From positions 1 through 51,016 of the forward strand of contig SHVB01000006.1 in NCBI GenBank assembly GCA_009694375.1: 51,016 bases of DNA. The letters run 5' to 3'. Below are positions 19,512 through 32,628 of this stretch, in pieces. How positions within the stretch are numbered: position 1 is the first letter of the stretch; each line of letters begins with the position of its first letter. Made by a program: the position numbers and the translations under genes. The notes under the pieces are model-generated. The model searched no databases. It worked only from the letters and a program-made list of their open reading frames with translations, and had not been told where the DNA came from. This DNA comes from Acidimicrobiia bacterium (lineage in GTDB: Bacteria; Actinomycetota; Acidimicrobiia; Acidimicrobiales; VFJN01).

Positions 19512-19606
19512 TCCCCAGCCAAGGTGACCACCCCGGTGCGAATGCGCCGATGGGGCCGCGCCCGGCGGTTCGTAGTGCGGCGGCGGGCTGCGTGACAAGA
19601 TCGGAC

Positions 19607-20944
19607 GTGCTCAAGTTCGGGACTGATGGGGTTCGGGGGGTGGCCAACCTCGACCTAACCAACGAGGTGGTGACCGCCTTGGGTCGAGCTGCAGCGCGGG
19701 TGCTCGGCGGGGACCGCTTTGTGGTGGGTCGAGACACCCGCCGTTCCGGTGGCCGGCTGGAGGCATCCCTGGTGGAGGGCCTGGTGGCCGAAGGAATGGC
19801 CGTACGGGTGCTGGCCGTGGCCCCGACGCCAGCGGTGGCCTGGGTGGCGGCGGCCGAAGGGATCCCCGGCGCGGTGGTCTCGGCCTCGCACAACTCCTTC
19901 GAAGACAACGGCGTGAAGTTGTTTGCGGCGGGGGGACTGAAGTTGGGCCGCGAGGTGGAGGTTGCCGTGGAAGCCGAGTTTCACCGCCTCCTGCGCGGTG
20001 ACCCCGCGACGGTGGTCGAGGCCGCCGCCGCTCCGGGATCGGTGGTGCAAGGCATGGGGGATGTGGCCCGGTGGGCCGCCAGTGTGGCGGCGTCTATCGA
20101 CGGTCGGAGTCTTGAGGGTCTGCGCGTCGTCGTGGATTGTGCCAACGGTTCTGCGAGCGGGATCGGCCCCGAGGTGCTGCGCTCGCTCGGGGCGCAGGTG
20201 GAGGTGCTGCATGCGGACCCCGACGGCACCAACATCAACGCCGGTTGCGGTTCTACCTACCCGAGGGAACTGCAGCGTGTGGTGGTGCAACGAGGGGCCG
20301 ATGCCGGTATTGCGTTCGATGGTGATGCCGATCGCGTACTGGCGGTGGATGCTGCCGGTCGCGTGATCGATGGCGATCAGATCATTGCGGTGTGTGCCGT
20401 AGACCGCCGCGTCCGCGCCTGCCTGCCCCAGGACACCGTCGTGGTAACGGTCATGACGAATTTGGGGTTTCGGCTGGGGATGGCCGATCACGGCGTAACC
20501 GTGTTTCAGGTTCCGGTAGGAGACCGCCATGTGCTCGAAGCGATGGCGGAGGGCGGATATGCCCTGGGGGGCGAACAGAGCGGCCATGTGATCTTTAGTG
20601 ATCTCGCCACCACGGGAGATGGTCTGCTCACTGCGGTACAACTTCTCGATGTGGTGGCACGTGCGGGTCGTCCGCTGGCCGAGTTGGCCGATGCCGCGAT
20701 GACGCGGCTCCCGCAGGTGCTGCGCAATGTCTCGGTCTCGGTTGCGAGCCCGGATGCCATTGCCGCGCTGGAGGCTGAGATTGCCGCGGTGGAGGCCGAA
20801 CTTGGCGAGCACGGGCGGGTACTCATCCGCGCCAGTGGAACCGAGCCAGTGGTGCGGGTGATGGTGGAGGCAGCTACTGCGGCGCAGGCGGAGCGGGCCG
20901 CCGAACACCTCGCCGGCTTGGTGGCCGATCTACCCCCCAGGTAG
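19607..20944 (+). CDS. glmM: phosphoglucosamine mutase
   Basis: Converts glucosamine-6-phosphate to glucosamine-1-phosphate for UDP-GlcNAc and peptidoglycan. GTG 19607 gives 445 residues and a start (LKFGTDGVRGVAN) like other GlmM; GTG 19592 is an alternative five codons upstream, and the open frame runs back to 19550. Motifs: SASHNSFEDNGVKLF with the phosphoserine, the metal loop DGDADR, and the C-terminal phosphate-binding RASGTEPVVRVMVE. It directly precedes the GlmS-like gene that makes its substrate. Confidence 0.94.
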   Translation: MLKFGTDGVRGVANLDLTNEVVTALGRAAARVLGGDRFVVGRDTRRSGGRLEASLVEGLVAEGMAVRVLAVAPTPAVAWVAAAEGIPGAVVSASHNSFEDNGVKLFAAGGLKLGREVEVAVEAEFHRLLRGDPATVVEAAAAPGSVVQGMGDVARWAASVAASIDGRSLEGLRVVVDCANGSASGIGPEVLRSLGAQVEVLHADPDGTNINAGCGSTYPRELQRVVVQRGADAGIAFDGDADRVLAVDAAGRVIDGDQIIAVCAVDRRVRACLPQDTVVVTVMTNLGFRLGMADHGVTVFQVPVGDRHVLEAMAEGGYALGGEQSGHVIFSDLATTGDGLLTAVQLLDVVARAGRPLAELADAAMTRLPQVLRNVSVSVASPDAIAALEAEIAAVEAELGEHGRVLIRASGTEPVVRVMVEAATAAQAERAAEHLAGLVADLPPR

Positions 20945-21037: not shown

Positions 21038-24000
21038 GTGTGCGGCATTATCGCCATCCTTCGCAGTCCCGGCGTTCGTCGCCCCTTGCCTGCCTCCGAG
21101 GTGTTCGCTCGTCTCGATGCCATCGTGGGTTCGCGGCTGGGCTCCGATGGGCTGGATGCGGCCGGGGTGGCGGCGCTCCGCCTCGAGGAACTCGACGCTG
21201 TTCTGCAGGGCATGGACGGCATCGCCTTGTTGGTGCACAACCGCGAGGTGGCGATCCGTATCGCGGCAGCCATGGTGGTGGTGGGGGATTGGGTCACGGC
21301 GCTGGAAACCGCCTTGGACAGCGACGACGCGTTGGTTCACCAGCCCCTCGAAGAGATCAACGCCACCCTCCTGCGGCTCAAGGATGCCCGCTGGGCCATC
21401 GAGCGCGATCGTTTGCCTACCGCGGAACGGGTGCGCGAACTGGTGGGGGCGGCCCCGGGGTGGTCGGCCATTGAGATCGCCACCTCGATTCAGCAGGCGC
21501 TCTCCGCCTTGGATCGCCTCGAGGTACGAGGGCGCGATTCCGCCGGGCTGACCGTGTTAGTGCGAGACCACGGCCTGGATCTTACCGACCCCGCTATCTC
21601 GGCTCTCCTGGCTTCCCGCCAGAGCGACGGACTGTTCCGGTCGAAGGCGGTGCGGACGGCCGAGGGTCATCTCAGCTTCGTCTACAAGGCCGCCGCCGAG
21701 ATTGGCGAACTCGGCGACAACACCTCGGCGATGCGAGCGGAGATCTTGGCCGATGACCTGTTGCGCCTGGCGCTGGGTGGTGAAGAGGGGGCCGCCGTGG
21801 TGCTCGGTCACACCCGATGGGCGAGCGTCGGCATCATCTCGCAGCCCAATGCCCACCCGGTGGACAGTCTCGAAGTGGACCGATCCGATGGCCCGTACGT
21901 CACCGCCGCCCTGAACGGCGACGTCGATAACTTCGCCGATCTCAAGGCGGCCGATGGGCTACGCGTGGCCGCCGAGATCACCACCGACGCCAAAGTGATC
22001 CCCACGATGGTGTCGCACCGCCTGGCGGAGGGGGCCAACCTCACCGATGCCTTTCGCAACACCGTGGCGGGTTTCGAGGGGTCGGTGGCTATAGCGGCGA
22101 GCGCCGCTTCCTACCCCGACCAACTCCTGTTGGCCCTGCGGGGCAGCGGGCAGGCCCTCTACATAGGGCTGGCCGAGGGCTGTTTCGTGGTGGCTTCTGA
22201 GCTCTACGGATTGGTTGAACTCACCCGCACCTACGTGCGGATGGATGGCGATACGCCCGCCAATGTCGAACACCCCACGGCCAGCCGCGGCCAGATCATC
22301 GTGCTTGATGGCCGCCAGGCGGGAACCCTTGAGGGCATCTACCGGCAGGCCTATGACGGCAGCGAAGTGGTGCTCACCCCCGGCGACGTGGAGTCGGCCC
22401 CGGTTACCACCCGTGATATCGATCGGGGAGAGTTCCCGCATTTTCTTCTGAAGGAGATCACCGAATCGCCTACCAGTTTCCGCAAGACGCTGCGCGGGAA
22501 GCTCGTGGAGCGCGACGGGCACCTGCGGGTCATGCTCGACGACAGCGCGCTCTCAGCAGCGGTGAGGGACGGACTTCGCTCCGGGCGTATCACTCGGATC
22601 CAGGTCATCGGCCAGGGCACCGCCCACGTGGCCGGCCAGAGCCTGGCGGCCGCCTTGGTGGCGGCGCTGCCCGCCGACCACCACCTACGCGTGGAGGCGC
22701 TGCCGGCCACCGAGCTTTCCGGTTTCGGACTCCGCCAAAGAATGTCCGACACCCTGGTGGTGGCCATTAGCCAATCGGGGACCACCACCGACACCAATCG
22801 CACGGTTGATCTCGCCCGCGATCGCGGTGCCACGGTGCTGGCCATCGTGAACCGGCGCGGCACCGCCCTCACCAACAAGAGCGACGGGGTGCTCTACACC
22901 TCCGACGGCCGTGATGTGGAGATGAGCGTGGCCTCTACCAAGGCCTTCTATGCGCAGATCGCGGCGGGCTTCATGTTGGCGTGGGCCATCGCCGAGGAGG
23001 TGGGGGGCCGCGTGGACCCAACCCTGGTGGCGGCTCTGCGTGATCTACCCGCTGCCATGGAGACCACGATTTCCCGTCGCTCCGTCATCGCCGCCATCGC
23101 CCAGCAGTTAGCGCCGTCGAAGCGGTACTGGGCCATGGTTGGCAATGGGACCAACCGCATCGCCGCCGAGGAACTGCGGATCAAGCTCAGCGAGCTCTGC
23201 TATCGCTCCATCGCCTGCGATGCCACCGAGGACAAGAAACACATTGATCTGTCCTGTGAACCGTTGGTCCTTGTTTGTGCCGCCGCGCTGGAGGGCTCCA
23301 CCGCCGATGATGTGGCCAAGGAGGTGGCGATCTATCGAGCCCACAAGGCCTCGCCCATCGTGATCGCCACCGATGGCGAGACGCGTTTCGCGGCAGCCAT
23401 GCAGGTCATCTTCGTACCGAGGACCCATCCCCAGTTGGCGTTCGTACTCACCGCGATGGCTGGCCATCTGTTTGGGTATGAAGCGGCCTTGGCCATCGAT
23501 GCGCAGGCGCATCCCCTCCGCGAGGCCCGCGCGGCCATTGAGGAGGCGGTGGGGGAACACGCCCCCGAAGACGGCGACGAGCTGTTGCGGTTGCTCCAGC
23601 CCGCCATCGCTACCGCGGCCGGGCGGTTCTTCGACGGGCTCCGTGGGTTGGCCTACGACGGCAACCTCGATGCCAGTACTGCGGTGCGGTTGGCGTCCTC
23701 ATTCCGCTACGCCCTCGGCATCGTCCCGCTCGACTCGTACCAGACCGAACTCGGTCGTATCGGCACGCCGGCGGTGGTCGTGGAAGATCTCACGGCGGCT
23801 CTGACGGCGGGCATCGAGGAACTCACGCGGCCGGTAGATGCCATCAAGCACCAGGCCAAGACGGTCACCGTGGGCATCTCGCGCAGCGACGAGACGCTGC
23901 TGCAGCCCCCGTTGGTGCAGGCGGTCCTCGCCGCCGGAGCCGCCCGCGATCGCCTCAGTTACAAGACGTTGCGCACCTTGGCCGACATCGACCCCGCCGT

Positions 24001-24460
24001 GGCCGAGGTCACCGGTTGGATTCGTTACGAACTCGACCGCGAGAGCGAGGATGGCGAGGTGCGGGTGGCCATTGTGGATCGCGGCGGGATCGCGCTGGAT
24101 ATCCCATCACGGGCGGAGCGCCACGGTGTTCTGCGCGGCACGAAGCACACCGTGGCACGTGAACGTCAGGTGTTCGTAACCCGGGGGCGGGAAGATAGCC
24201 GCACCGTAGTGATCGTGCCGGAAACGAAAGATGACCGCGCCGTGGGGATCACCTTGTTGCATGTTCGGTTCCACGACTACCTCTCACTGGCCGCTGCCCG
24301 GGGTGCCCTCCAGGGGTACCGGAACCGGTGGTCGGTTCTACGGGACGCCGTGTTGGAGACCGAACCGACCTTCCGGGAAGACCGTCTGGCGGCCGTGCCG
24401 ACGGCCGATCTGTTGGTGGAGCCGATTCGTGAATTGGCCGACCGCTGGCGCTCGGGGTGA
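21038..24460 (+). CDS. glmS: oversized GlmS-like glutamine-fructose-6-phosphate aminotransferase
   Basis: GlmS makes glucosamine-6-phosphate from fructose-6-phosphate and glutamine. GTG 21038 is chosen because it puts Cys at position 2, needed as the N-terminal nucleophile; an ATG 12 codons upstream would bury it. From there the protein is about 1140 residues, against about 610 for normal GlmS. Order: CGIIAI (2-7); an insertion of about 150 residues; RGRDSAGL (164-171); HTRWAS (258-263); NGDVDN (293-298); first SIS domain with ISQSGTTTDT (577-586) and STKAF (633-637); second SIS domain with GNGTNRIAAEELRIKL (702-717) and EDKKH (731-735); PVDAIKHQAKTVTV (932-945), like the normal GlmS C-terminus; then about 195 extra residues with no domain I recognise. 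Since glmM lies just upstream, it is very likely the cell's GlmS, but acceptor specificity is inferred. Confidence 0.85.
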   Translation: MCGIIAILRSPGVRRPLPASEVFARLDAIVGSRLGSDGLDAAGVAALRLEELDAVLQGMDGIALLVHNREVAIRIAAAMVVVGDWVTALETALDSDDALVHQPLEEINATLLRLKDARWAIERDRLPTAERVRELVGAAPGWSAIEIATSIQQALSALDRLEVRGRDSAGLTVLVRDHGLDLTDPAISALLASRQSDGLFRSKAVRTAEGHLSFVYKAAAEIGELGDNTSAMRAEILADDLLRLALGGEEGAAVVLGHTRWASVGIISQPNAHPVDSLEVDRSDGPYVTAALNGDVDNFADLKAADGLRVAAEITTDAKVIPTMVSHRLAEGANLTDAFRNTVAGFEGSVAIAASAASYPDQLLLALRGSGQALYIGLAEGCFVVASELYGLVELTRTYVRMDGDTPANVEHPTASRGQIIVLDGRQAGTLEGIYRQAYDGSEVVLTPGDVESAPVTTRDIDRGEFPHFLLKEITESPTSFRKTLRGKLVERDGHLRVMLDDSALSAAVRDGLRSGRITRIQVIGQGTAHVAGQSLAAALVAALPADHHLRVEALPATELSGFGLRQRMSDTLVVAISQSGTTTDTNRTVDLARDRGATVLAIVNRRGTALTNKSDGVLYTSDGRDVEMSVASTKAFYAQIAAGFMLAWAIAEEVGGRVDPTLVAALRDLPAAMETTISRRSVIAAIAQQLAPSKRYWAMVGNGTNRIAAEELRIKLSELCYRSIACDATEDKKHIDLSCEPLVLVCAAALEGSTADDVAKEVAIYRAHKASPIVIATDGETRFAAAMQVIFVPRTHPQLAFVLTAMAGHLFGYEAALAIDAQAHPLREARAAIEEAVGEHAPEDGDELLRLLQPAIATAAGRFFDGLRGLAYDGNLDASTAVRLASSFRYALGIVPLDSYQTELGRIGTPAVVVEDLTAALTAGIEELTRPVDAIKHQAKTVTVGISRSDETLLQPPLVQAVLAAGAARDRLSYKTLRTLADIDPAVAEVTGWIRYELDRESEDGEVRVAIVDRGGIALDIPSRAERHGVLRGTKHTVARERQVFVTRGREDSRTVVIVPETKDDRAVGITLLHVRFHDYLSLAAARGALQGYRNRWSVLRDAVLETEPTFREDRLAAVPTADLLVEPIRELADRWRSG

Positions 24461-24822
24461 AAGGGATCGGGGTGGATGTGTGTGAGGTGGATCGGATGCG
24501 CGCCGCCCTGGTGCGTACCCCCACCCTCCGGGGCCGTGTATTCACCGACGCGGAGCAGGCCTACTGCGACCGTCGAAAGGACCCGGCGGAACGGTATGCG
24601 GTGCGGTGGGCCGCCAAAGAAGCCGTGTTGAAGGCGCTGGGCGAGGGGGTAGGGGCGTGTCGCTGGACCGAGATTGAGGTGGTGCGGGCCGTCACCGGCG
24701 CTCCCTCGGTGGTCCTGCACGGTGGGGCCCGGACCCTGGCGTTGGAGCAAGGAGTCAGCCGCTGGCTTCTCACGATGACCCATACCCGCCGGGTGGCCGA
24801 AGCCATCGCGGTGGCCCTGTGA
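24457..24822 (+). CDS. acpS: holo-[acyl-carrier-protein] synthase
   Basis: Transfers the phosphopantetheine group from CoA to acyl carrier protein. The 121-residue product starts at GTG 24457 in a GTGA overlap with glmS. The two metal-binding motifs of AcpS are present: GVDVCEVDRM (residues 4-13) and WAAKEAVLKALGEG (around 47-60). It ends in a GTGA overlap with the next gene. Confidence 0.95.
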   Translation: MKGIGVDVCEVDRMRAALVRTPTLRGRVFTDAEQAYCDRRKDPAERYAVRWAAKEAVLKALGEGVGACRWTEIEVVRAVTGAPSVVLHGGARTLALEQGVSRWLLTMTHTRRVAEAIAVAL

Positions 24823-30100: not shown

Positions 30101-30109
30101 TCAGCCGAG
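30086..30109. terminator. hairpin across the convergent tsaD / beta-propeller stops
   Basis: Arms 30086-30095 and 30101-30109 make a 9-bp stem with one bulged base and a 5-base loop. The structure contains both stop codons (TGA 30098-30100 on the plus strand, TCA 30101-30103 for the minus strand) and could work in either direction. Seen pairing; bidirectional termination inferred. Confidence 0.5.
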
Positions 30110-32158
30110 CACGGCCTCGACCTCGCCGGTCGAGCCCACCCGGGTGAGTTCGGTTCCGACCACGAGGAAGTCGCCGCCGTCGAGCCGCAGCACGCGCTGG
30201 GCTTCCCCAGCACCGGTGGCGACGGCCGTTATGCGGAGGCTGGTGCCGGTCGGGTCGAGCATCACCAGGCGAGCCTGCGGGAAGGTCGAGGGGTAGACGC
30301 ACTCCAAGAGCGCCGTCACCCGGGCTTCAATCTGCGGCAGGACGGGTGGCACCTCGCTGTCGCCTCGCACCTCCATCTGGCGGTACTGCTCTTCGACCTG
30401 GCGCTGCGCCTCCTCGAGCTCGGCCTGGGCGTTGGCCAGTGGACCGCACCGGGCCGGGCGCTCGGCCACCCGGTCGTTGGCGGCTAGGAGCAGCTGCTCC
30501 CCTTCGGCGCGCAGGGCGTGGTGGTCCCACACCACCGGGCTGTCGGCGCCGACCCGCACCGTGTGGAGGAGCCGGGGCGCCGTGGGTTCGCCCACGTCGA
30601 ACAGGCGCGCCAACACGTCGCCATCGTCGCCGGGACCGAACCCGATCACCTGGGTGGGGCTGATCGGGTGCAGGTAGGCGGAGAAGCCCGGGATCTCGAT
30701 CTCGCCGAGCACCCTTGGTGCGGCAGGGTCGGCCAGGTCGATCACGTAGAGCGGATCGGTCTGCAGGAAGGTCACGGCATACGCGGTGTCACCCGCGAAG
30801 CGGATGCCGTGCAGCGTCTCCCCCTCGTGCCCAAAGCGCGGGCTGCGGCCCACCACGTCGAGCGCGCCGTCGAGGTCGAGGGTCACGATCTCGCTGAGGC
30901 CCACTCCGGCCGAGGCCACCGTGGTGGTGGTGGTCGGCGCTTCGGTGGTGGTGGTGGTGGTCGGCGCTTCGGTGGTGGTGGTGGTCGGCGCTTCGGTGGT
31001 GGTGGTGGTCGGCGGCTCCGGCGGGGTCGTGGTCGTCGTGGGCTCGTCTGGTGCCGGCTCGCGGGCGGCTGAGCTAGCGGTGTCCTCCACCACCACGCCC
31101 ACGTCGGGCTCGATGGCCATGGGCCCCTCCGGCGGAGCGAACCCGCCGAGGGTGACCGCGGCGCGGAGGTGTCCATCGTGCTCGTCGAGCGCGAACTGGT
31201 TGATGAGCTGACCGGTCACGGAGCCGGATCCCGTGAGCTGGAGATCGTCGAGGTCGAAGCGGTGGATGCCCGTCACCGGTCGCGGGGCGTCGATCGCCGG
31301 GGTACTCACGTAGAGCGCCGTTGCGGTGACGAGCACGTTGTCGCCGGCGCCCACGATCTCGGCGGCCGCGGTGGGTCGAAGCGCCCCGGTGGTCGAGAAG
31401 GAGGTCACCAGGGTGGTGGCCGGGCCGCCGGGCAGCGGGGAGTGGAGCACCTCGTCGCAGGGCACCGGCGACGTGCCGCGGAAGGGCAGTACCTCGTTGG
31501 GGGCCACCTCCCCGTCGCGCTCGATGGCGATCCCTGACTCCATTGGCAGCACGTCGTCGTCCACGACCACCAGGTGCACCGCGGCTCCGTCGCGGCGCAG
31601 GTCCACGAGCCGCCCGGCGACGCTCCACGAGGTGGCATCCGTGAAGCCGTCCCCGGTGAGGACGGCTCGGGTGAGGGTGGTCGACTGCCCCTCGTAGCTG
31701 ACGGCCCAGAGCGTTGTCCCCTGCTCATCGACGGTGATCTGCGGAGCCGGTGGCACCGGCAGTGTGGCGAGGACCACCTCCCCGCCGGCGTCCACGAGGA
31801 CCACACGGTCGTCGCGGGCGACGAGTAGGCGGCCATCAGCCAGCACCTCCACCACGTCGAGCTCGTCGACCCCGGCTACCTGGGTGTTCGTGCCGCCGCC
31901 GCCGCCGGAGGCCGACTCGGCCGTGGGCACGGCGACCGACCGGCTGTCGGCCTCGTCGAGGGTGAGGGGCCCGGCGTCGGTCGCCGCCTGGACGAGGTGG
32001 GCCCGGAGCTCGCCGCACCCCGAGAAAGTCTCGAGGCCGACGGCGGAGGCGTTGTCCACGCTGAGCACGATCGAGGCCCCCACCACGGCGAGGCTGGCGA
32101 CGAGGCTGGCGACGAGACGGAGCCACCGCGACGGGTGGGGAGTGGTGGGATGGGGCAC
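30101..32158 (-). CDS. secreted C-terminal beta-propeller domain protein
   Basis: Matches the COG4880 / Beta_propel type of secreted protein known mainly from actinobacteria and archaea; function unknown. GTG at 32158 is chosen: a GGAGG motif lies 8 bases upstream, and the product (685 residues) then opens with a signal sequence (residues 11-39, hydrophobic LRLVASLVASLAVVGASIVL). An open frame continues upstream over the CIRCE operators and into groES and is not used. Visible pieces: an N-terminal GGGGGTNTQVAGVDELDVVE block (about 88-107), characteristic of the family, propeller blades with repeated short beta strands, a Thr/Pro/Glu-rich linker (about 375-413) between blades, and a coiled stretch rich in Glu/Gln near 600-620. 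Probably outside the cell. Confidence 0.85.
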   Translation of the reverse strand: MPHPTTPHPSRWLRLVASLVASLAVVGASIVLSVDNASAVGLETFSGCGELRAHLVQAATDAGPLTLDEADSRSVAVPTAESASGGGGGTNTQVAGVDELDVVEVLADGRLLVARDDRVVLVDAGGEVVLATLPVPPAPQITVDEQGTTLWAVSYEGQSTTLTRAVLTGDGFTDATSWSVAGRLVDLRRDGAAVHLVVVDDDVLPMESGIAIERDGEVAPNEVLPFRGTSPVPCDEVLHSPLPGGPATTLVTSFSTTGALRPTAAAEIVGAGDNVLVTATALYVSTPAIDAPRPVTGIHRFDLDDLQLTGSGSVTGQLINQFALDEHDGHLRAAVTLGGFAPPEGPMAIEPDVGVVVEDTASSAAREPAPDEPTTTTTPPEPPTTTTTEAPTTTTTEAPTTTTTTEAPTTTTTVASAGVGLSEIVTLDLDGALDVVGRSPRFGHEGETLHGIRFAGDTAYAVTFLQTDPLYVIDLADPAAPRVLGEIEIPGFSAYLHPISPTQVIGFGPGDDGDVLARLFDVGEPTAPRLLHTVRVGADSPVVWDHHALRAEGEQLLLAANDRVAERPARCGPLANAQAELEEAQRQVEEQYRQMEVRGDSEVPPVLPQIEARVTALLECVYPSTFPQARLVMLDPTGTSLRITAVATGAGEAQRVLRLDGGDFLVVGTELTRVGSTGEVEAVLG
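30921..31020 (-). repeat. imperfect 24-27 bp repeats coding a Thr-rich linker
   Basis: Four imperfect units, each a run of GTG/GGT triplets followed by CGGCGCTTCG or a variant (plus-strand reading), inside the beta-propeller gene. On the coding strand they spell runs of Thr separated by Glu-Ala-Pro. All length differences are multiples of three. Such linkers are frequent in secreted proteins of Acidimicrobiia-like genomes; the repeat is likely prone to slippage. Confidence 0.85.
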
Positions 32159-32234
32159 GGTGGCGACCTCCGGTATGGCTAGTTGCGTAGCGGGACCCCT
32201 GTTGGACGTTGTCGGGGGGCTCGTTGGTTCCGCG

Positions 32235-32261
32235 CTGGCACTCGACGGTTGCGAGTGCTCA
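32235..32261. promoter_or_regulatory. distal CIRCE-like HrcA operator
   Basis: GCACTC (32238-32243), nine bases, GAGTGC (32253-32258): the inner part of the CIRCE inverted repeat is perfect and only the outer bases deviate (CTG for TTA, TCA for TAA). Its right arm overlaps the proposed -35 site TTGCGA (32249-32254). Center-to-center distance to the perfect CIRCE is 43 bp, about four helical turns. Confidence 0.7.
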
Positions 32262-32278
32262 TCTTCCCGGCCTACAGT
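32249..32278 (+). promoter_or_regulatory. predicted groES promoter
   Basis: TTGCGA (32249-32254) and TACAGT (32273-32278), 18 bases apart, placing the transcript start near 32285, inside the perfect CIRCE. This puts one operator on the -35 side and one on the start site. By-eye prediction supported by the operator layout. Confidence 0.5.
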
Positions 32279-32304
32279 TAGCACTCGCACTATCCGAGTG
32301 CTAA
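32278..32304. promoter_or_regulatory. perfect CIRCE operator (HrcA site)
   Basis: TTAGCACTC, nine bases, GAGTGCTAA: an exact match to the CIRCE consensus, 33 bases before the groES start. HrcA bound here represses groESL and is released on heat stress. hrcA itself is not in the window. Confidence 0.97.
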
Positions 32305-32337
32305 CCCGTATTGCCAGCGTCACGGAGGCGCCCAGAC

Positions 32338-32628
32338 ATGTCACTACAGCCCCTTGAAGATCGAATCATTGTCCTGCCTGGCCAGGCCGAGGAGACCACC
32401 GTTAGCGGTTTGGTCATCCCCGACACGGCTCAGGAGAAGCCCCAACAGGGGAAGGTGCTCGCCGTCGGCCCCGGCCGTCGGTCCGAGCAAACCGGAGAGG
32501 TCATCCCGCTTGACGTCAAGGTGGGCGACATCGTCGTCTACAGCAAGTACGGCGGCACCGAGATCTCTGACGGTGGCGATGACGTCCTTATCCTGAACGG
32601 TCGCGACGTGCTCGCGATCGTCAAGTAG
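32338..32628 (+). CDS. groS: co-chaperonin GroES
   Basis: GroES caps the GroEL chamber. ATG 32338 follows GGAGG by nine bases and gives 96 residues, the normal length; an in-frame extension back to 32311 would run into the operator region. Motifs: [27 protein letters not shown] at the N-terminus (given here as the recognised region, residues 3-29), the mobile loop, and the [14 protein letters not shown] block. Regulated by CIRCE/HrcA. Confidence 0.97.

Follow-up and report, generated by a model that had tools for sequence, protein, structure and literature searches.

A long form of GlmS with a predicted PAS/GAF-like C-terminal domain at the glmS locus of Acidimicrobiia

Gene and anatomy of the long GlmS

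The window analysed here, a stretch of 51,016 nucleotides from an Acidimicrobiia bacterium (assembly GCA_009694375.1, contig SHVB01000006.1), carries a glmS gene whose product, here called long GlmS, keeps the catalytic residues of glutamine:fructose-6-phosphate amidotransferase and has four additions to the standard enzyme. It is a real, widespread and apparently undescribed form of this textbook enzyme, and a search of the literature for long GlmS in these bacteria returned nothing. The gene stands in the run rpsK-rpsD-rpoA-rplQ-truA-rplM-rpsI-glmM-glmS-acpS-nnrD-alr, with these coordinates for glmS and the genes that adjoin it:

19550..20944, + strand: glmM, the pathway neighbour 5′ of glmS; start probably nearer 19607
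21038..24460, + strand: long-form glmS coding sequence, 1140 residues, GTG start, TGA stop, frame open
24457..24822, + strand: acpS, sharing four bases with the end of glmS and overlapping its stop

We place the start at GTG 21038 rather than at ATG 21002, where an alternative longer open frame begins, because all relatives of long GlmS share the N-terminus M/V-C-G-I. An N-terminal-nucleophile glutaminase needs its Cys right at the N-terminus. The NCBIfam model for GlmS (TIGR01135) matches residues 252-819 with an E-value of 2e-69 and 234.7 bits, and conserved full-length relatives number in the hundreds, so the reading frame is far beyond chance. Pfam recognises SIS and glutaminase domains only, and a scan with Rfam of the region near the gene found no glmS ribozyme or other RNA family at gathering score.

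The anatomy was set by aligning long GlmS with the E. coli enzyme and with four standard GlmS proteins from the same class, to which it is 28-31% identical. A sequence-only reading of this DNA had put about 160 residues between Cys2 and RGRDSAGL, a further expansion ahead of HTRWAS and about 195 residues beyond the usual C-terminal tail. The measured values agree: from the Cys to R(G)RDSAG there are 162 residues, compared with 25 in E. coli GlmS (+137), and from the Arg26 equivalent to HTRW there are 94, compared with 45 (+49); 194 residues follow the tail motif AKTVTVG. That reading had listed the glutaminase and C-terminal additions correctly and missed the one at residues 822-930, ahead of the catalytic tail. 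The four additions, at about residues 10-146, about 181-214, 822-930 and 947-1140, are distributed along the protein as follows:

21038..21064, + strand: catalytic Cys (residue 2) and first glutaminase beta strand, residues 1-9; C2 invariant in 102 relatives, strand at 3-9 in the model
21065..21475, + strand: insert 1, residues ~10-146, all-helical bundle directly after strand 1; net +137, from alignment and model
21527..21550, + strand: RGRDSAGL motif, residues 164-171 (E. coli Arg26-Gly27, with Tyr28 replaced by the invariant Arg166), from residue alignment
21578..21679, + strand: insert 2, about residues 181-214, inside the glutaminase; from the alignment with E. coli and class GlmS, boundary approximate
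21788..22405, + strand: remainder of the glutaminase domain, residues 251-456 (HTRW 258-261, NG 293-294, D317), from alignment and fold match
22406..23500, + strand: isomerase part with two SIS domains, residues 457-821 (SQSG 578-581, STKAF 633-637, E719, KKH 733-735), from Pfam, NCBIfam and fold match
23501..23827, + strand: insert 3, residues 822-930 (~110), five helices between the second SIS domain and the catalytic tail, from alignment and model
23828..23875, + strand: catalytic C-tail, residues 931-946, RPVDAIKHQAKTVTVG; K941 corresponds to E. coli Lys603, from alignment and model
23876..24457, + strand: C-terminal PAS/GAF-like domain (predicted), residues 947-1140, from the isolated model and fold search

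Conservation is uneven along the protein. The tail RPVDAIKHQAKTVTVG is the most conserved stretch, at 97% mean column identity, and insert 1 is the least conserved part, at 48%; the mid insert (insert 3) reaches 62% and the C-terminal domain 68%, with at least 90% identity in 53 of its 194 columns and the polar residues R1025, K1036, D1053, R1055 and E1107 invariant.

The motifs of the enzyme can be read along the whole chain (Cys2, R260/W261, N293-G294, D317, S578-Q-S-G, T583, S633-T-K-A-F, E719, H735 and K941). Among 102 long forms, the equivalents of Cys1, Glu488, His504 and Lys603, whose catalytic roles are established in E. coli GlmS (PMC9272926), are invariant. So are, in E. coli numbering, Arg26, Arg73, Trp74, Asn98, Gly99, Asp123, Ser347, Gln348, Ser349, Thr352 and Lys485. 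Apart from Arg26 and Trp74, we take these remaining positions to serve in binding, as in the E. coli enzyme. The 102 relatives therefore hold both the glutamine site of GlmS, formed by the N-terminal Cys with Arg73, Asn98, Gly99 and Asp123, and its isomerase residues Glu488, His504 and Lys603 with the sugar-phosphate loop Ser347-Gln348-Ser349-Thr352. With an intact frame of 1140 codons, this bears out the initial view that the catalytic and sugar-phosphate motifs are kept and that the gene is not decayed.

Predicted structure and the C-terminal domain

The full-length model of long GlmS has a mean predicted local distance difference test score (pLDDT) of 90.3 and a predicted template modelling score (pTM) of 0.86. 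Its best structural match in VIA is human GFAT-1 (PDB 6r4i), with Z 43.5 over 602 residues; E. coli GlmS follows with Z 42.5. Because the fold match runs from residue 2 to 947, the core corresponds to a complete GlmS including the tail; in the predicted structure the glutaminase, the two SIS domains and the C-tail all adopt the GlmS fold (Z 42-43). The catalytic tail is modelled with low pLDDT (about 51), as would be expected of a mobile lid.

Insert 1 is modelled as a five-helix bundle and has no relative by sequence in Pfam or the PDB. Pfam searches of the inserts gave only a sub-threshold DUF7124 and scattered weak matches, which we take as chance, and PDB sequence profiles of the inserts gave only chance helical matches.

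Modelled alone, the C-terminal domain reaches a pLDDT of 94.0 and a pTM of 0.90. Along the chain a helix is followed by two strands, three short helices, three strands and finally five helices, and the part a-bb-aaa-bbb reproduces the PAS order at the level of elements. The top Foldseek match is a GAF domain (E 5e-4), and of the 50 VIA rows nearly all belong to sensor domains of the GAF, PAS or a similar type, the best being the cAMP-binding GAF domain of Lcd1 (PDB 5w10), with Z 9.2 over 80 residues. With such sensors, including the GAF domain of ptsP (PDB 3ci6), the domain shares the antiparallel sheet and the PAS/GAF element order; it differs from them in having five extra C-terminal helices and no significant sequence match. 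We assign it as PAS/GAF-like with moderate confidence, on the basis of the model. The idea that the added parts are regulatory domains is accordingly upheld in one half: the C-terminal part has a predicted sensor-type fold, and the N-terminal insert is a helical bundle with no known domain by sequence.

Another match of the C-terminal domain is to residues 174-359 of the mycobacterial large glutamate dehydrogenase L-GDH180 (PDB 7jsr), which aligns with nearly the whole domain (162 residues, Z 8.6). Besides ACT-like domains and helical motifs, the N-terminal segment of that enzyme contains a PAS-type domain (PMC8175468). Both proteins are core nitrogen-metabolism enzymes to which helical motifs and a PAS-type domain, predicted in the case of long GlmS, have been added; the dehydrogenase is known in Actinomycetota among others. 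They differ in having unrelated catalytic cores and only 9% identity in the matched segment, and the match is only suggestive because the crystal structure is at 6.27 Å.

In 396 genomes of the phylum, the C-terminal domain was found in no other protein, except for one match of 49 residues (E 4.7e-4). No relatives of the domain were found on plasmids and none of long GlmS in viral contigs, and an origin from a mobile element was set aside on these grounds.

Distribution and genomic slot of the two forms

The genome from which the window comes is 96% complete and has one GlmS-type locus only, besides a glutaminase-only match taken to be PurF, so that no GlmS of normal length accompanies the long one, a point which the sequence-only reading had left to be checked together with the taxonomic range. 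Over 296 genomes of the class, for which two search tables were combined by hand, long GlmS is present in 118 and standard GlmS in about 162 (159 over the TIGR01135 cut-off), with 16 undetermined and none carrying both. The separation is equally sharp by family: 31 of the 55 are long, 24 standard and none mixed. Six single-contig genomes carry the long form only. Relatives of long GlmS among the best 80 matches listed include Aquihabitans, Candidatus Microthrix, Ilumatobacteraceae and Acidimicrobiales. Outside the class, the form occurs in a few families of the phylum, and eight of the nine long-form genomes found there lack a standard GlmS over the cut-off. Long GlmS is a widespread alternative form in the class and not a one-off oddity.

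In two genomes the long glmS is broken, by an apparent frameshift in one (G149:C1:1179746-1183184) and by an internal TGA in the other (G087:C23:307488-310955). As no other GlmS passes the cut-off in either genome, sequencing errors are the probable cause.

We compared the gene neighbourhoods of 40 loci, 20 with the long and 20 with the standard form, which share the slot rplM-rpsI-glmM-glmS-acpS. At all 20 long-form loci glmM adjoins glmS, and acpS comes next except at four loci, where the comparison did not detect it; of the 20 standard genes, most occupy the same slot beside glmM. As sole copy and neighbour of glmM, the long form has the genomic place of a GlmS.

A tree built from eight markers of the neighbourhood, with FastTree and a quick IQ-TREE run, shows the two forms interleaved, with six changes of form, at least three of which are forced by well-supported branches; shuffled form labels need 11.8 changes. 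One standard family (f49) is nested within a long clade with strong support. The interleaving indicates that the gene was repeatedly exchanged or lost. A swap by recombination through the flanking genes is likely, because the slot is constant while the forms share about 30% identity; alternatively, differential loss from an ancestor with both forms may account for the pattern.

Some observations stand apart from these. The GlmU of the same genome (C1:285175-286233), of about 365 residues, ends just short of the acetyltransferase catalytic stretch. A short GlmU is found in most tested genomes of the order, with either form of GlmS, and other orders of the class have it at full length. A link between the long form and loss of the GlmS activator GlmR/YvcK, hinted at by a first sample, was dropped, as there is no clean correlation across the class and both types of family occur with and without it. 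Elsewhere in the window, a 747-residue open frame (30101-32344, - strand) probably encodes a secreted protein, whose middle contains a TTTT linker rich in Thr and Pro.

Function, alternatives and proposed control

Taken together, the single GlmS locus of the genome, the mutual exclusion of the two forms, the shared slot, the kept catalytic residues and the GlmS fold lead us to regard it as probable that long GlmS is the working glutamine:fructose-6-phosphate amidotransferase of the cell, replacing standard GlmS in its slot and with a sensor-type domain tied to its tail. The parts of this reading differ in strength. That long GlmS is the functional GlmS can be proposed with high confidence, and the enzymatic replacement of the standard form is well supported, whether it came about by exchange in place or because one of two forms was lost; that the C-terminal domain regulates the enzyme as proposed below can be suggested with low to moderate confidence. 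Compared with standard bacterial GlmS (TIGR01135; E. coli PDB 1jxa, 2j6h), the long form has the same glutaminase and double-SIS fold, N-terminal Cys and equivalents of Glu488, His504 and Lys603, and is likewise the sole GlmS of the cell, in the slot after glmM. It differs in that its glutaminase is longer by a net 137 and 49 residues, with a further 110 added ahead of the tail and 194 behind it; identity is about 30%, the score lies under the curated cut-off and several conserved positions are changed.

Several results weigh against this reading. The score of 234.7 bits is below the curated equivalog cut-off of TIGR01135 (418 bits), so that long GlmS is a divergent long form outside that equivalog family. 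Positions conserved in standard GlmS are altered (Tyr28 to Arg, His77 to Val/Ile, His97 to Leu, Asn600-Leu601 to His-Gln), with further rule-like differences at Thr76 (Ser) and Ser303 (Ala, also found in one standard form), and because of these changes the enzyme may have other kinetics or another specificity. The match to PAS/GAF domains is modest: VIA typically gives Z values of 7-8 for models without a clear match, which the best Z of 9.2 only slightly exceeds, and the assignment therefore relies on how consistent the match list is and on topology. Sequence profiles give PAS_3 in 3 of 98 members, with a best E-value of 0.13. Finally, one genome outside the class (G335) has a long and a standard GlmS on different contigs and is flagged as 5% contaminated; its two forms are either contamination or a true double. 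This genome belongs to another class, measures 6.5 Mb and has its GlmS loci on C313 and at C155:14039-15844.

The low identity, the sub-threshold score and the changed positions are also what would be expected if the long form were another SIS-type amidotransferase, making a different amino sugar while glucosamine-6-phosphate came from elsewhere. We consider this improbable, since the long form excludes standard GlmS (118 and 162 class genomes, respectively), occupies the same locus beside glmM and keeps all catalytic and phosphate-binding residues, with no second GlmS in its own genome. More improbable still is a bifunctional protein in which the C-terminal domain is a fused acetyltransferase compensating for a truncated GlmU. 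GlmU does stop ahead of the acetyltransferase catalytic stretch in this genome and in its order, but the truncation follows the taxonomic order and not the form of GlmS, and the predicted topology of the domain is PAS-like; we rejected this candidate because families of the order with standard GlmS likewise have a truncated GlmU, and families of other orders with long GlmS have a full one.

A purely structural role of the extra modules deserves more weight, although we think it unlikely: they would build a larger oligomer or hold the halves of the enzyme together without sensing, and the C-terminal domain would serve in dimerisation or packing. The N-terminal and mid inserts, as plain helical bundles of lower conservation (48% and 62%), would suit such a role, and comparable extra segments of the mycobacterial large glutamate dehydrogenase make intersubunit contacts (PMC8175468). 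The C-terminal domain, in contrast, is well conserved (68%, 53 of 194 columns at 90% or above), and its invariant R1025, K1036, D1053, R1055 and E1107 fit a binding site better than a role in packing alone.

For the working GlmS with a sensor-type domain, a possible mechanism starts from the tail. The short C-tail of standard GlmS, with Lys603, closes over the sugar site. Once fructose-6-phosphate binds, the isomerase site closes and the glutaminase becomes active (PMC9272926), and the ammonia channel is formed by Trp74 of the Q-loop together with the C-tail (PMC7948480). In long GlmS, only about 9 residues separate K941 from the first helix of the PAS-like domain, and the tail therefore does not end freely. 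The C-terminal domain, for which the helical inserts may act as a docking surface, would bind a small molecule or a partner, and the ligand state of the domain would alter closure of the tail as a lid and so set the output of glucosamine-6-phosphate. First guesses for the ligand would be an end product or a redox or energy signal; UDP-N-acetylglucosamine (UDP-GlcNAc) or a nitrogen signal, as suggested at the outset, is possible as an idea only. We put forward tentatively, and at somewhat less than even chances, the combined proposal that the PAS/GAF-like domain responds to a small molecule by gating closure of the tail and the transfer of ammonia, as a direct allosteric control independent of that in GFAT, and that plain and sensor forms have been swapped repeatedly at the slot.

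Eukaryotic GFAT is likewise an extended GlmS-type enzyme, from which the long form differs by four additions at other places, one of them a PAS-like C-terminal domain. The position of the human insert on E. coli GlmS is one that we assume; long GlmS has no insert before the VASE motif, and hence no GFAT-type insert of ~46 residues late in the glutaminase, so the earlier view that the two solutions are unlike holds. GFAT has one internal glutaminase loop of about 46 residues, and UDP-GlcNAc binds to its isomerase domain (PMC7948480, PMC7000685).

The long form has practical consequences, as annotation pipelines based on TIGR01135 would score 118 of the 296 class genomes as being without GlmS. 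GlmS makes the first committed precursor of peptidoglycan, and its known control in bacteria sits outside the enzyme, in a ribozyme, small RNAs and GlmR. Direct inhibition by UDP-GlcNAc has been reported only for eukaryotic GFAT (PMC7000685). The fused PAS/GAF-like domain suggests a built-in control of a step for which direct feedback is reported only from eukaryotes and, if this is true, a sensor-type domain on the catalytic tail of GlmS would be an independent way to regulate the hexosamine step. The occurrence of either form at the same locus in related bacteria offers a natural experiment.

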